DNA from: Ancalomicrobiaceae bacterium
Lineage (GTDB): Bacteria; Pseudomonadota; Alphaproteobacteria; Rhizobiales; Ancalomicrobiaceae
Length of the DNA: 64,000 bases
Assembly: GCA_031291595.1 (NCBI GenBank)
Contig: JARLIU010000097.1
Span: 1 to 64,000 of the forward strand
Direction: 5' to 3'
Shown one piece after another: positions 4,500 to 58,806 of the stretch (its first letter is position 1; the number at the start of each line of letters is the position of its first letter). The notes under the pieces were generated by a model. It had not been told where the DNA came from, ran no database searches, and saw only the letters and a program-made list of their open reading frames with translations. A program made the position numbers and the translations under genes.

Positions 4500-4571
4500 C
4501 ATTGCGAGCGCAGCGAAGCAATCTAGAAAGCCAAAGGAAGACTCTGGATTGCTTCGCTGCGCTCGCAATGA
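4500..4571. repeat. Palindromic intergenic repeat (CATTGCGAGCGCAGCGAAGCAATC type)
   Basis: Left arm cattgcgagcgcagcgaagcaatc, right arm gattgcttcgctgcgctcgcaatg; located between convergent kdsD and hemH. Confidence 0.85.
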
Positions 4572-19895: not shown

Positions 19896-20180
19896 GGTCT
19901 GGTCCCGGCCGCCGAGCTGAAATGGGGCGACCGACGGCCGGCCGATCGGCCGCTGGTGAAGCCCGCCGATGCCGACGTCTCGTCATTGCAGAAGCCGCCA
20001 CGGGCCGTTCCGGCAGTCGGTCGTCCCCCGGACCTGCGGCAGGACGGGCATCGGCGGCGGCGCAGACAGGCTGCGAGCCGATACAATCGCCCTCATCCGC
20101 CCGTCACATGCATCCGGCAGAATTCCGACACGATCGCCCCGATTCCGGTTGACGCACGCCGGAACCTCTGACTTCAACAC

Positions 20181-20256
20181 CTAGTGCACCGACTCATTCA
20201 TTCGCTTCATAGTGCTGCAGGTTCGTGAGCGAATGAATGAGTCAAAGGTGCCCTAG
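20181..20256. repeat. Palindromic element A1 (CTAGTG family), first half of paired element
   Basis: Left arm CTAGTGCACC-GACTCATTCATTCGCT; right arm reverse complement CTAGGGCACC-TTT-GACTCATTCATTCGCT. Confidence 0.9.
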
Positions 20257-20269
20257 CAACCCTATGACT

Positions 20270-20348
20270 CTAGTGCAGTTTACGACACAAACACTTGATC
20301 GGCGAACCCGCGGCACGCATGAATCAAGTGTTTGTGTCACTGCACTAG
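20270..20348. repeat. Palindromic element A2 (CTAGTG family), second half of paired element
   Basis: Left arm CTAGTGCAGT-TTAC-GACACAAACACTTGAT; right arm reverse complement CTAGTGCAGT-GACACAAACACTTGAT. Confidence 0.9.
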
Positions 20349-20378
20349 CCATCAGTTCCAGCCGGAGGTTCCACGCGA

Positions 20379-21809
20379 ATGTCGACCTGGCCCGTCTATC
20401 ACACCATCACCGGTCCCATCGTCATGATCGGCTTCGGCTCGATCGGGCGCGGCATGCTGCCGCTGATCGAGCGCCATTTCGACTTCGATTCCAAGCGCAT
20501 GGTGGTGATCGATCCGGTCGACGACGATCGCAAGCTGTTGGACGAGCGCGGTATCCGCTACCTCCAGGCCGCCGTCACCCGTGACAACTACCGCGACCTG
20601 CTGGCCCCCCTCCTCACCGAGGGCGACGGCCGGGGCTTCTGCGTCAACCTGTCCGTCGACACCTCCTCGCTCGACATCATGCGGCTCTGCCGCGAGTTGG
20701 GCGTGCTCTACATCGATACCGTCATCGAGCCCTGGCTCGGCTTCTACTTCGACAAGACCAAGGACGTGGCGGCACGCTCCAACTACGCGTTGCGCGAGAC
20801 GCTCCTCGCCGAAATGCGCGCCAGCCCCGGCGGCACGACCGCGGTCAGTTGCTGCGGCGCCAACCCGGGCATGGTGTCCTGGTTCGTCAAGCAGGCGCTC
20901 ATCGACATCGCCCGCGATACCGGCCACCCGACCGAAGTCCCGACCTCGCGCGACGGCTGGGGCCGGCTGGCGAAGCAACTCGGCGTGAAGGGCATTCACA
21001 TCGCCGAGCGCGACACCCAGCGCGCTCGCGATCCCAAGCCCGCCGATGTCTTCGTCAACACCTGGTCGGTGGAGGGCTTCGTCTCGGAAGGCAACCAGCC
21101 GGCCGAACTCGGCTGGGGCACGCATGAGACCTGGCTGCCGGCGAACGGCCGCACGCACCCGGAAGGCTGCGGCGCCGCCGTCTATCTCTTACAGGCGGGT
21201 GCCAATACCCGCGTCCGCTCCTGGTGCCCGACCCCCGGCGCGCAATACGGTTTCCTCGTCACCCACAACGAGGCGATCTCGATTGCCGACTATCTGACGG
21301 TGCGCGACGGCGACACGGTCGTCTATCGCCCGACTTGCCATTACGCCTATCACCCGGCCAACGATGCCGTGCTGTCGCTGCACGAGATGTTCGGCGCCAC
21401 CGGCCGCATGCAGTCGGATTGGAAGATCTTGGACGAGCACGAAATCGTCGACGGCGTCGACGAACTCGGCGTCCTCATCTTCGGCCACTCAAAGAACGCC
21501 TATTGGTACGGCTCGCGCCTCTCCATCGAGGAGACCCGTCGGTTGGCGCCTTACCAGAACGCCACCGGCATGCAGGTCAGTTCCGCCGTGCTCGCCGGTA
21601 TGGTCTGGGCGTTGGAAAATCCAACCTCGGGTATCGTCGAAGCCGACGAGATCGACTTCAGACGCTGCCTTGAGGTGCAGCGGCCCTATCTCGGCCCGCT
21701 CGAAGGTCACTACACCGATTGGACGCCGCTCGCCGACCGCCCCGGGCTGTTCCCAGAGGACCTCGACGTGAGCGAGCCGTGGAGCTTTCGCAACGTCTTG
21801 GTGCGGTGA
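20379..21809 (+). CDS. hss: Homospermidine synthase
   Basis: MIGFGSIGRGMLPLIERHFDFDSKRMVVIDP; YIDTVIEPWLGFY; CCGANPGMVSWFVKQAL. Confidence 0.94.
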   Translation: MSTWPVYHTITGPIVMIGFGSIGRGMLPLIERHFDFDSKRMVVIDPVDDDRKLLDERGIRYLQAAVTRDNYRDLLAPLLTEGDGRGFCVNLSVDTSSLDIMRLCRELGVLYIDTVIEPWLGFYFDKTKDVAARSNYALRETLLAEMRASPGGTTAVSCCGANPGMVSWFVKQALIDIARDTGHPTEVPTSRDGWGRLAKQLGVKGIHIAERDTQRARDPKPADVFVNTWSVEGFVSEGNQPAELGWGTHETWLPANGRTHPEGCGAAVYLLQAGANTRVRSWCPTPGAQYGFLVTHNEAISIADYLTVRDGDTVVYRPTCHYAYHPANDAVLSLHEMFGATGRMQSDWKILDEHEIVDGVDELGVLIFGHSKNAYWYGSRLSIEETRRLAPYQNATGMQVSSAVLAGMVWALENPTSGIVEADEIDFRRCLEVQRPYLGPLEGHYTDWTPLADRPGLFPEDLDVSEPWSFRNVLVR

Positions 21810-22932: not shown

Positions 22933-24606
22933 TCAGGCCGCCGCGATCTCGCCGAGGAAGTCTGCGATATCGCGGTTGAGCGCCTGGATGACCCCCTCCA
23001 GCCGGCCGGACTCTTCAAGCAACCCTTGCGACATCTGCTTGGTATTGTTCACCACCGCGTCGATCTCGGAGATGTAGGAATTGACCTCGACGGTGCCCTT
23101 GGCCGCCTCCGCCACGTTGCGGGCGATCTCGTTGGTCGAAGCGCCCTGCTCCTCGACCGCCGAGGCCACCGACATGGTGATGCGGTCGATGTCGCGGATC
23201 GTCGTGCCGATCGTCTCGATCGCCGAGACGGTGGTCCGCGTGGCCGCCTGCATGGCGGAGATCTGCGCCGCGATTTCCTCCGTTGCCTTGGCGGTCTGAC
23301 CGGCAAGGTTCTTCACCTCGTTGGCGACGACGGCAAAGCCGCGCCCAGCTTCGCCCGCCCGCGCCGATTCGATCGTCGCATTGAGGGCGAGGAGGTTGGT
23401 CTGCGCCGCAATCGACTGGATCAGCCCGACGACCGCGCCGATCCGTTCCGCCGAAGCACTGAGCGAGCCGACGGCGGCCGCCGATTCGTCCGTATAAGTC
23501 ACCGCCCGCGTCGCCGTCCTGGCGGCATCGTCGACATTGCGATTAATCTCGGCAATCGAGGCCGACAGTTCCTCGGCGGCCGATGCCACCGTCTGCACGT
23601 TGGACGTCGTGCGTTCGGATGCCCGCGCCACCTGACGCGTCTGCTCCGCGCCAAGGGTCGACCGTTCGATCTGGCTCTTCGCCGCTTCCGCAACCAACGC
23701 CGTCACCTGCTTCACCGCCTGCAGCGATTGCTGCACGCCGTGCTCGAACGTCGCGACGAGCGACAGGATGCGCGCCTGCCGAGCATCGCGCTCGCGCATC
23801 GACTGTTCCGACGCAGCGCCGGCTTCGGTCGCCGCAGCGACCGACGTGCGATAGTGTTCGACCGCCGCCGCCAGCGCGCCGATCTCGTCGTTGCGATCGC
23901 GGCTCGGTACGGAGAGCGCGGTTTCGCCGCGAGCGATGCGCTGGATGCAGGCGACGAGATCGCGGATTGGCCGGCCGATGCGCCGCTGCGCAAACATCAT
24001 GCCGAAGGCGACGCAGCCGATCAGCACGATCAGCGTTGCAATCGTCAGATACTTGCCGATAAGCCCCGCGCGTTCGTTCGCCGCACTGATCTCCAAGCTT
24101 TCGTCGCGCAACCGCGCGCCGAGCGCCTCGAGGTCCTTGTTGAGCTGGATCCTGACCGAACGATTGGCGTCGTTGTCGCTCTGCTTGCGCGCTTCCGACG
24201 GCCCGACCTCAAGCCCGAGCCGCACCGTCTCCTTGCGGAAATCGCGGAATTGCGCGGCGCGTTGCTTGAACTGGTCAAACTCCGATCTCAGCTGCGGCGC
24301 CAGGTCGGCATCCCATTCGGCAACCGACTTGTCCATCCGATCAAGGCTCTGCAGCAGTCCGGTGGCGAATTTCTTGGTAGTGGCAGCGTCCGGCGACATG
24401 AAGATGCCGCGCGAATCCATCACCACCGCGTAGATGAGGCCGTTGACCCGTTCAATGGCGATGACGCCGCGCAAGTTGCGCGTATTCATCGCCTCAAGCT
24501 TGCCGATCTCGCTTTCCTGCCACAGTGCGATGCCGCCGAGTGCCAGACCTGCCGCCATCATGACGGCGAACACCAGAGAAAGCCGGGTGGAAATAGAATT
24601 TGCCAT
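22933..24606 (-). CDS. Methyl-accepting chemotaxis protein (paralog 1)
   Basis: [81 protein letters not shown] hairpin. Confidence 0.93.
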
Positions 24607-24963
24607 TGTCACCGCCCAAGATGCGCAGGCGGCCAAAACACCGCCACTACGACCGCAGTGTCGTTCAGACGTATGAAAAAGCTCTAAACCTAAGACTGCT
24701 CGACATTTTCGTGCAATTCGCTGAAAGCTGAATGTGTGTCCAATAAGTACACTTTACTATACAAGTCACATCTTCGGGTGAGTCCTGCGGAATATACCAA
24801 ATATTAGTTGTATTTCTGCCCGCCGGAGCGATCGGAGACACCGATTTCGAAAAATAGTCCTATGCTCTCGTCGCCGCTCCAGCATGCCGCAATAGCGGAC
24901 GCTCCGCGCGGGCGGCGCGGCCAATCGTTTCGAGACTATCGCCGCCACCGTCGGAGCGCCCGT

Positions 24964-26640
24964 TCAGGCCGCCGCGATCTCGCTGAGGAAATGGCCAACG
25001 GTGCCGTTGAGCGCGCGGATGACCGTTTCCAACCGGTCGGCCTCGTCGAGCAGTCCCTGCGACATCTCGCTGGTGTTGTTCACTACCGCATCGATCTCGG
25101 AGATATAGGAATTGACCTCCACGGTCCCCTTGGCCGCCTCCGACACGTTGCGGGCGATTTCGTTGGTCGAGGCGCCCTGCTCCTCGACCGCCGAGGCGAC
25201 CGACACGGTGATGCGGTCGATCTCGCGGATTGTCGTACCGATCGTCTCGATCGCCGAGACGGTGGTCCGGGTGGCCGCCTGCATGGCGGAGATCTGGGCG
25301 GCGATCTCTTCCGTCGCCTTGGCGGTCTGACCGGCAAGGTTCTTCACCTCGTTGGCGACGACGGCAAAGCCGCGCCCAGCTTCGCCCGCCCGTGCCGATT
25401 CGATCGTCGCATTGAGGGCGAGGAGGTTGGTCTGTGCCGCGATCGACTGGATCAGCCCGACGACCGCGCCGATCCGTTCCGCCGACGCGCTGAGCGAGCC
25501 GACGGCGGCCGCCGATTCGTCCGTATAGGTCACCGCCCGCGTCGCCGTCCTGGCCGCATCGTCGACATTGCGATTGATCTCGGCAATCGAGGCTGACAGT
25601 TGTTCGGCGGCGGAGGAAACCGTCTGCACGTTCGACGTCGTACGTTCGGATGCCAGCGCCACCTGGCGCGTCTGTTCGGCTCCGAGCGCCGACCGTTCAA
25701 TCTGGCTCTTCGCCGCCTCCGAGACCGACGATGTCACCTGTTCCACCGCTCGCAGCGATGTCTGCATGTCGCGGTCGAACGTCGAGACGAGCGACAGGAT
25801 GCGCGCCTGCCGCACTTCGCGCTCGCGCATCGACTGTTCCGACGCAGCGCCGGCTTCGGTCGCCGCAGCGACCGACGTGCGATAGTGTTCGACCGCCGCC
25901 GCCAACGCGCCGATCTCGTCGTTGCGGTCGCGGCTCGGTACGGAGAGCGCTGTTTCGCCGCGGGCGATGCGCTGGATGCAGGCGACGAGATCGCGGATCG
26001 GCCCGCCGATCCGCCGCTGCGCGAACATCATGCCGAAGGCGACGCAGCCAATCAGTACGATCAGCGTTGCAATCGTCAGATATTTGCCGATGAGCGCGGC
26101 ACGCTCGTTCGCCGCACCGATTGCCAGGCTTTCGTCGCGCAGTCGGGCGCCGAGCGCCTCGAGGTCCTTGTTGAGTTGGCTCCTGACCGTGCGGTTGGCG
26201 TCGTTGTCACCCTGCTTGCGCGCTTCCGGTGGCCCGACCTCGGTGCCAAGTCGCACCGTTTCCCTGCGGAAGTCGCGGAACTGCGCCGCGCGGACCTTGA
26301 ACTGGTCGAACGTCGATCGCAGATCGGGCGGCAGATCAGCATCCCACTCGGAGACCGTCTTCTCCATCCCGTCGAGGCTTTTCAATAGCCCGCTGGCGAA
26401 CTTCTTGGCCGTCGCAGTGTCTGGCGACATGTAGATGCCGCGCGAATCCATCACCACCGCATAGATGAGACCGTTGACCCGCTCGATGGCGATAGCCCCG
26501 CGCAAGTTGCGCGTATTCATCGCTTCGAGCTTGCCGATCTCGCTCTCCTGCCACAACGCGATAGCGCCGAGCGCCAAGCCTGCCGCCATCATCACGGCGA
26601 ACACGAGAGAAAGTCGGGTGGAAATAGACTTTGCCATCAT
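24964..26640 (-). CDS. Methyl-accepting chemotaxis protein (paralog 2, tandem duplicate)
   Basis: Near-identical to 22933-24606 along most of its length; identical signalling hairpin. Confidence 0.93.
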
Positions 26641-27065
26641 CGCTGCCCATAGTGCCAAAAGCGGCTCAATCGCTGCCGCCACGACTGCAATGTTATTCGA
26701 ATGTGTGAATTAAGTTCTAAGCCGGCAACAGTCGCTGTCTTTGCAGCCTTGGGTCAAAGCCAAACTACGTTCAAATTGTAGGTACTTTTAGCTATAAATT
26801 TCAGTCGAGACACCTATTGCTCCGAATTGGCCAAGTCTTAATTTGGAATTAGCCGTCTTCTCCGCTGCCGGGCGACGATGACGCAAGGACATGGCTGTCG
26901 GACGGACTCAAATGGCAGCAGATCTGGGCGAACGGCAGCGAACGCTGACATCGCCCACGCTCGCCGGCCGCATCGCGAGGCAGCCTGAAACACATATGAC
27001 CGTCAGAATACATTCATCGTGGCCAGATGTAGCGTGACCTGAAACCCCGGACGGATTTTCAGCGC

Positions 27066-58637: not shown

Positions 58638-58716
58638 CTAGTGGAGCGAATTCGACATTTGAGCCCCAGCGTGCGGGAAGAGACGAACTCAAATGTCGAA
58701 TTCAAAGCTCCACTAG
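58638..58716. repeat. Palindromic element B1 (CTAGTG family), first half of paired element
   Basis: Left arm CTAGTGGAGC-GAATTCGACATTTGAG; right arm reverse complement CTAGTGGAGC-TTT-GAATTCGACATTTGAG. Confidence 0.9.
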
Positions 58717-58729
58717 ATTCAATAAGTTG

Positions 58730-58806
58730 CTAGTGGCCCTTTGACTCCGACATTTGCTCAAGCACGTGCGGCAAGTGGGATGCAAAGGTCGGAGTCGGAC
58801 CACTAG
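58730..58806. repeat. Palindromic element B2 (CTAGTG family), second half of paired element
   Basis: Left arm CTAGTGGCCC-TTT-GACTCCGACATTTGC; right arm reverse complement CTAGTGGTCC-GACTCCGACCTTTGC. Confidence 0.9.

Follow-up and report, generated by a model that had tools for sequence, protein, structure and literature searches.

RUP of Streptococcus pneumoniae, the Correia elements (NEMIS) of Neisseria and other IS630-derived MITEs are short, gene-less, multicopy units with IS630-like ends, a TA-containing target and a stable hairpin (PMC2229807, PMC2817692). The 155-bp form of Correia carries an IHF site that is bound in vitro (PMC2229807, PMC2817692), and both RUP and Correia are described with one stem running from end to end. 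Among alphaproteobacterial repeats, the CcrM-associated intergenic repeats of Caulobacter and Brucella (CIR, CIR1-4) are built from two long inverted-repeat arms plus a linker, with TA termini and conserved GANTC; by description they measure ~110 bp and hold GANTC in the terminal loop (PMC2229807). For CIR, that review gives no IS relation, TSD or IHF site and reports mobility as unresolved (PMC2229807). Further dispersed intergenic palindromes are Br-REP1 and Br-REP2 of Bradyrhizobium (PMC5082802) and the 103-118-bp Bru-RS of Brucella (PMC2267715). In the enterobacterial REP doublets BIME-1 and RIP-RIB, an IHF-binding sequence is flanked by two palindromes in inverted orientation (PMC2817692).

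We analysed a window of 64,000 nucleotides, the whole of the stretch introduced above, in which a 168-bp element with two hairpins (copy A) stands in front of hss. It resembles the IS630-derived MITEs in being short, gene-less and multicopy, with IS630-like ends, a TA-containing target and stable hairpins. In contrast to RUP and Correia, each half is palindromic in itself and has conserved inner bulges of 3-4 nt, the exact midpoint between the hairpins is taken up by an IHF-like site, and all four hairpin feet bear CTAG. It shares with CIR the intergenic position, the TA termini, GANTC and the form of two arms plus linker, but is longer and has GANTC at the linker rather than in a terminal loop. 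The enterobacterial doublets differ by their 20-40 bp REP units, GTAG and RAYT, and by lacking a CTAG target and IS630 ends; the hairpins here span ~75-80 bp. Br-REP1, Br-REP2 and Bru-RS come from the same bacterial class; the printed consensus sequences of Br-REP are unlike these arms, and Bru-RS was compared by description. The nearest relatives are the IS630-derived MITEs (RUP, Correia) and, compared by description only, CIR. Judged from its sequence, copy A is very probably a non-autonomous MITE of the IS630/Tc1-mariner family.

Architecture, copies and spread of the element

The two hairpins of copy A are arranged in mirror symmetry (Table 1). In hairpin 1, the outer arm (CTAGTGCACC/GGTGCCCTAG) is paired at 9/10 positions and the inner stem (20191-20206 with 20228-20243) at 16/16, and the bulge AAA (20244-20246) lies in the right arm. 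In hairpin 2, outer arm (10/10) and inner stem (20284-20299 with 20323-20338; 16/16) are fully paired, and the bulge occupies 20280-20283 in the left arm. Coordinates and pairing of the hairpins, bulges, mirrored layout, inner stems and 13-bp spacer reproduce what a sequence-only reading of this DNA had described, and its distance of 30 nt between the dimer and the ATG of hss (20349-20378) is exact. Folded singly as DNA, the hairpins reach z-scores of -7.3 and -8.1. Copy B displays an identical layout.

Table 1. Positions of copies A and B, their parts and the neighbouring gene within the window
Feature	Position	Strand	Remark
Copy A, subfamily F3, complete 168-bp two-hairpin element, probably a MITE	20181..20348	.	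single-CTAG empty site in sister species
Copy A, hairpin 1	20181..20256	+	10-bp outer arm, 16-bp inner stem, bulge of 3 nt
Copy A, hairpin 2	20270..20348	+	outer arm 10, bulge TTAC, inner stem 16
Copy A, 13-bp spacer	20257..20269	-	AGTCATAGGGTTG (minus-strand reading); 7/9 specified bases of the IHF consensus (WATCAANNNNTTR)
Copy A, left-boundary CTAG	20181..20184	.	putative target/TSD; TA or CTAG duplicated
Copy A, right-boundary CTAG	20345..20348	.	putative target/TSD
Terminal repeat CTAGTGCACCGACTCATTCA	20181..20200	+	19/20 against IS630 right end CTAGTGCACTGACTCATTCA
Terminal repeat CTAGTGCAGTGACACAAACACTTGATTCAT	20319..20348	-	24/30 against IS630 left end CTAGTGCACTGACGCAAACATAGGATTCAC
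hss, homospermidine synthase-like, saccharopine dehydrogenase domains	20379..21809	+	downstream neighbour of copy A
Copy B, subfamily F2, second complete element	58638..58806	.	hairpins 58638-58716 and 58730-58806
Copy B, 13-bp spacer	58717..58729	+	ATTCAATAAGTTG; 8/9 IHF-consensus bases

The element is not confined to these two loci: at least 52 copies with the exact core CACTAG-N13-CTAGTG are present in the source assembly (5.25 Mb, 319 contigs), where the reversed control of this pattern gives 0 matches and the 24-base outer end gives 143 at up to 3 mismatches. A DNA search for copies returned 98 first-look candidates, of which 40 were scored. Some source-genome copies are 98-99% identical. 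Three subfamilies can be distinguished: F1 and F2 have a mostly common arm sequence, and F3 consists of copy A and three near-identical copies, two F3 copies directly abutting an F1 element with one CTAG common to both. No transposase gene lies inside this multicopy element of fixed short length; 70/80 curated elements measure 167-169 bp, and the 3-4-nt inner bulge is present in 77/80 for hairpin 1 and 78/80 for hairpin 2. A plasmid collection gave no match to copy A, and weak matches to copy B on Rhizobium, Ochrobactrum and Agrobacterium replicons. At one locus (L018, 1428-1506), hairpin 1 carries its loop in the opposite orientation to the rest of the subfamily, which suggests inversion between the palindrome arms. 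The tetranucleotide CTAG is itself rare in the window, with 30 sites in 64 kb, 8 of them inside copies A and B, against ~200 expected from base composition.

Within the order, the core pattern occurs in 34/398 genomes and 19/141 genera, and the remaining genera of the family to which the window belongs gave no match. Scanning GTDB species returned at least 116 stretches; among the matches listed, 99/108 cores with both flanks have two hairpins with at least 20/26 Watson-Crick pairs each. Both searches fixed some core letters (TC, TTG) and are therefore unusable for judging the core itself, while the hairpins beyond CACTAG/CTAGTG lay outside the pattern. Carriers include Bradyrhizobium, Mesorhizobium, Hyphomicrobium, Brucella tritici, Rhizobium paknamense, Sphingobium, Novosphingobium, Acidiphilium and Pleomorphomonas oryzae, the last with a member of the copy A family (L216). 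A match in Paraglaciecola was discarded as a chance core without hairpins. The elements form 61 end-arm groups with lengths of 163-172 bp and, in nearly all, loops of 19-25 nt; over the curated and scanned elements, most lengths fall at 165-170 bp. Size, spacer and the 3-4-nt inner bulges are held across these groups, which come from many alphaproteobacterial genera, while the arm sequences differ and covary.

Insertion sites, IS630 ends and candidate transposases

The flanks of 13 elements were joined by one CTAG and searched in two genomes of the same genus; five sites were informative at the junction, where the empty genome reads CTAG, CTAA, ATAG, CTAC and ATCC. Copy A is absent from the hss of the sister species (G002), which aligns at 88% over 246 bp with zero junction offset and has ATCC opposite CTAG. 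The elements are therefore insertions into CTAG-like sites, and there is strong support for copy A being a fixed 168-bp unit, with CTAG at both sides, inserted into a single site of this kind. That the empty hss site reads ATCC and not CTAG counts against the CTAG-target account. Duplication of TA, duplication of CTAG and cleavage beside CTAG without duplication would fit the sequence alike.

At three loci (L045, L056, L019), the element sits on the TAG stop codon of a gene with the frame's stop preserved, and the sister genome has an uninterrupted gene end. In-frame TAG (or TAA) stops are supplied by 21/71 element ends when open frames of at least 100 codons are considered. A preference for stop codons was nevertheless discarded, since the number is just modestly above that of same-length open frames in the other two frames; we treat this weak excess as a side effect of CTAG targeting.

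Tenzen and Ohtsubo 1991 (a reference in PMC2170065) report, by their title, a preference of IS630 for TA in CTAG. Other genomes of the order harbour transposons of the IS630 family with CTAGTG at their ends. A one-contig genome (G149) carries ~10 intact IS630 copies with ends CTAGTGCACTGACGCAAACATAGGATTCAC and CTAGTGCACTGACTCATTCAGAAGG, all in CTAG sites and with every boundary reading C-TA...TA-G; their encoded protein is an IS630 transposase (NF033545, 267.5 bits; DDE_3). Among 122 end sequences from the 61 element groups, the best matches to both IS ends belong to the copy A family, and this match exceeds that of all 300 shuffles. The sequence-only reading had listed a match to a transposon terminus as an outcome that would speak against it, and such a match was found for the copy A family, at 24/30 and 19/20 bases. 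The correspondence of the outer ends of copy A to both ends of a CTAG-sited IS630 insertion sequence is thus strongly supported by these alignments. A layout of CTAGTG followed by GA at offset 11 is common to the IS630 ends and the outer arms of the element groups.

A dedicated trans-acting transposase other than IS630, with the IS630 match of the copy A family representing captured ends, is an unlikely explanation that nevertheless accounts for several results. No DDE_3 transposase was detected in the source genome or in many element-rich genomes, despite near-identical copies in the former that point to activity in the recent past. Only the copy A family yielded a close IS630 match; among the IS630 loci of the carrier genomes tested, none is a cognate of the commonest arm family (GAATTTGACATTTGAG). 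A search for a long autonomous element with main-family ends gave none among the matches listed, many of which pair up as complete 168-bp elements. However, CTAG targeting and the end layout are common to IS630 and the element groups, and multicopy insertion sequences may escape assemblies that break at repeats. An IS630 remnant beside one element (L277, in genome G278) resembled an autonomous form but is apparently an unrelated insertion sequence lying next to it. In the IS630 copy whose ends were compared with copy A (L124, 988-2073), the transposase gene crosses the right terminal repeat, and its stop codon is the TAG of the CTAG target.

The likeness to REP/BIME elements mobilised by RAYT, as proposed by the sequence-only reading, did not hold up. 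Such elements would be moved as single-stranded hairpins, on which a Y1 tyrosine transposase works. That mechanism agrees with the bulged hairpins in inverted pairs, the tetranucleotide at the foot and the central IHF-like site, as in BIME-1 (PMC2817692), and Y1 cleavage at CTAG would leave the same empty-site pattern. Yet the foot is CTAG on both sides and not GTAG, the size of the element is far greater, and it is a DDE transposon of the IS630 type that the copy A ends match. The same reading had found no RAYT gene in the window, and none was found in the source genome: Y1_Tnp (PF01797) is absent from 14/17 genomes tested, namely the source genome and 13 others, with many element carriers among them. 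Movement by RAYT is therefore largely refuted and very improbable.

Selection on the arms and the hss leader

The stems had been read as covarying, and the comparison of many elements offers a greater level of detail. Between the 61 groups this holds: pairing reaches 94% and 91% for a hairpin's own arms but 54% and 56% once arms are swapped between groups, and most arm positions display 3-4 Watson-Crick pair types. Within subfamilies it does not. Of the arm pairs changed within F1 and F2, 0 are compensated and 47 are one-sided, 7 of these turned into G-T and 40 broken. As the covariation is found only between groups, it gives no support to an RNA function at hss, and the uncompensated recent substitutions favour selection at the level of DNA over that of RNA.

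Divergence from the F1 and F2 consensus is 0.013-0.025 per site in the arms and 0.095-0.10 in the loops; the loops thus diverge ~5-fold more than the arms, although their lengths hold. So new copies decay like neutral DNA, and the arms are kept in the lineages that multiplied. The inner arms are conserved equally to the outer arms, which suggests that they count for multiplication and do not simply persist as remnants. This pattern fits a transposition enzyme that recognises four related binding sites or folded hairpins. The compensated differences, which occur only between subfamilies and groups, are consistent with rewriting of arms within palindromes combined with selection for matching ends.

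A cis-regulatory RNA of the hss leader, whether riboswitch, thermometer or processing hairpin, would be suggested by the position 30 nt upstream of the ATG and by the very stable fold of the region (20160-20380; -105.2 kcal/mol as RNA, against -58.8 +/- 4.9 for shuffles; z -9.4). This explanation is hardly credible, given that the hss of the sister species lacks the element, dozens of unrelated loci carry it, the arm substitutions within subfamilies are one-sided and an Rfam search with the element returned nothing meaningful. An RNA switch specific to hss, which would call for conservation at the hss of relatives, was rejected on the comparison with the sister species. Any effect of copy A on hss would instead be a by-product of insertion of the mobile element into the leader.

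hss is a polyamine gene. Its assignment here is backed by Pfam saccharopine-dehydrogenase domains and by gene context (Orn/DAP/Arg decarboxylase, GNAT), and its product has no equivalog match in NCBIfam. The hss leader contains an inverted repeat of its own, GGAACCTC...GAGGTTCC (20161-20168 and 20365-20372), which covers the Shine-Dalgarno region and holds copy A in its loop. The sister genome (L071), whose hss is unoccupied, has this repeat too; the repeat hence predates copy A and is possibly a native control hairpin of hss.

The central spacer and a proposed mode of movement

The listed spacers measure 13 bp in 72/87 cases and 14 bp in 8/87, a tally that pools several searches, some with the spacer fixed at 13 bp and one with its length free. 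In 56/67 distinct 13-bp cores, at least 7/9 bases of the IHF consensus WATCAANNNNTTR (the form used in published papers) are matched, against ~1.5% expected from base composition. The central 13 bp can thus be regarded as a putative IHF-type site.

GANTC is the CcrM site. It spans the junction of CTAG and core in 47/67 cores, and totals 146 in the 61 element groups against ~39 in mononucleotide shuffles, an excess that is partly biased as many loci were retrieved by a TC-containing pattern. These figures, together with the conserved GANTC and two-arm-plus-linker form of CIR (PMC2229807), would agree with a mobile element kept as a methylation- or nucleoid-related module of GANTC/CcrM and an IHF site, as has been proposed for CIR. 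However, most GANTC sites lie at the core junction or within the arms, and only some groups have them at the stem/loop border. Whole groups (f11, G208) have lost it from the core junction (GAAAC, GAACC) while keeping CAA/CAT...TTG, which makes the IHF-like part look like the more general constraint. As recent insertions moreover look neutral, we consider maintenance as such a module quite improbable.

For the IS630-derived MITE, the following sequence of events can be proposed. Copy A would have inserted into a CTAG-like tetranucleotide upstream of the hss ribosome-binding site, an IS630-type transposase supplied in trans binding the outer repeats and presumably cutting and pasting the unit at the TA within CTAG. 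Each outer repeat would have an inverted internal copy, giving rise to the hairpins. In these internal copies, the end-proximal 10 bp are set apart from the inner 16 bp by 3-4 additional bases, which would place the inner ends out of register with the true ends. Being off-register, the inner ends should be poor ends, favouring mobilisation of the whole dimer over that of single hairpins. A sharp IHF-type bend exactly in the middle would double the element back on itself, short and stiff as its 168 bp of DNA are, allowing the ends to pair and setting the two halves (~76-79 bp) side by side. The folding by IHF is suggested by sequence and geometry, and we hold this step and that of the off-register inner ends with somewhat less than even confidence. 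With its short length, built-in bend site and off-register inner ends, such an element would be a compact natural system for studying end pairing in tiny transposons.

More doubtful is a broader proposal, in which all these elements might make up a single ancient superfamily of the alphaproteobacteria that obeys a mobility rule of its own. This would be a four-ended MITE whose two palindromic end-pairs are brought to face each other by a central IHF site, whose off-register inner ends force the dimer to move as one and whose arms are rewritten on both sides for each new IS630-type transposase; CIR (Caulobacter, Brucella) would then represent a related branch. If true, this would explain how CIR repeats move. 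The reading of copy A as an IS630-derived MITE in itself gives a testable origin for the two-armed palindromic repeats scattered over alphaproteobacterial genomes, ties them to IS630 and an IHF-type bend, and explains covarying stems without RNA function. It also carries a warning that such leader hairpins are not to be read as riboswitches.

The window holds another palindrome at 4500-4570, with 24 perfectly paired bp (CATTGCGAGCGCAGCGAAGCAATC), a 23-nt loop and the ending CAATGACG. It resembles the CGTC-tagged REP repeats, which reportedly have no dedicated transposase (PMC3733652). Two closely similar genes of the methyl-accepting chemotaxis type lie in tandem on the minus strand at 22933-24636 and 24964-26682.
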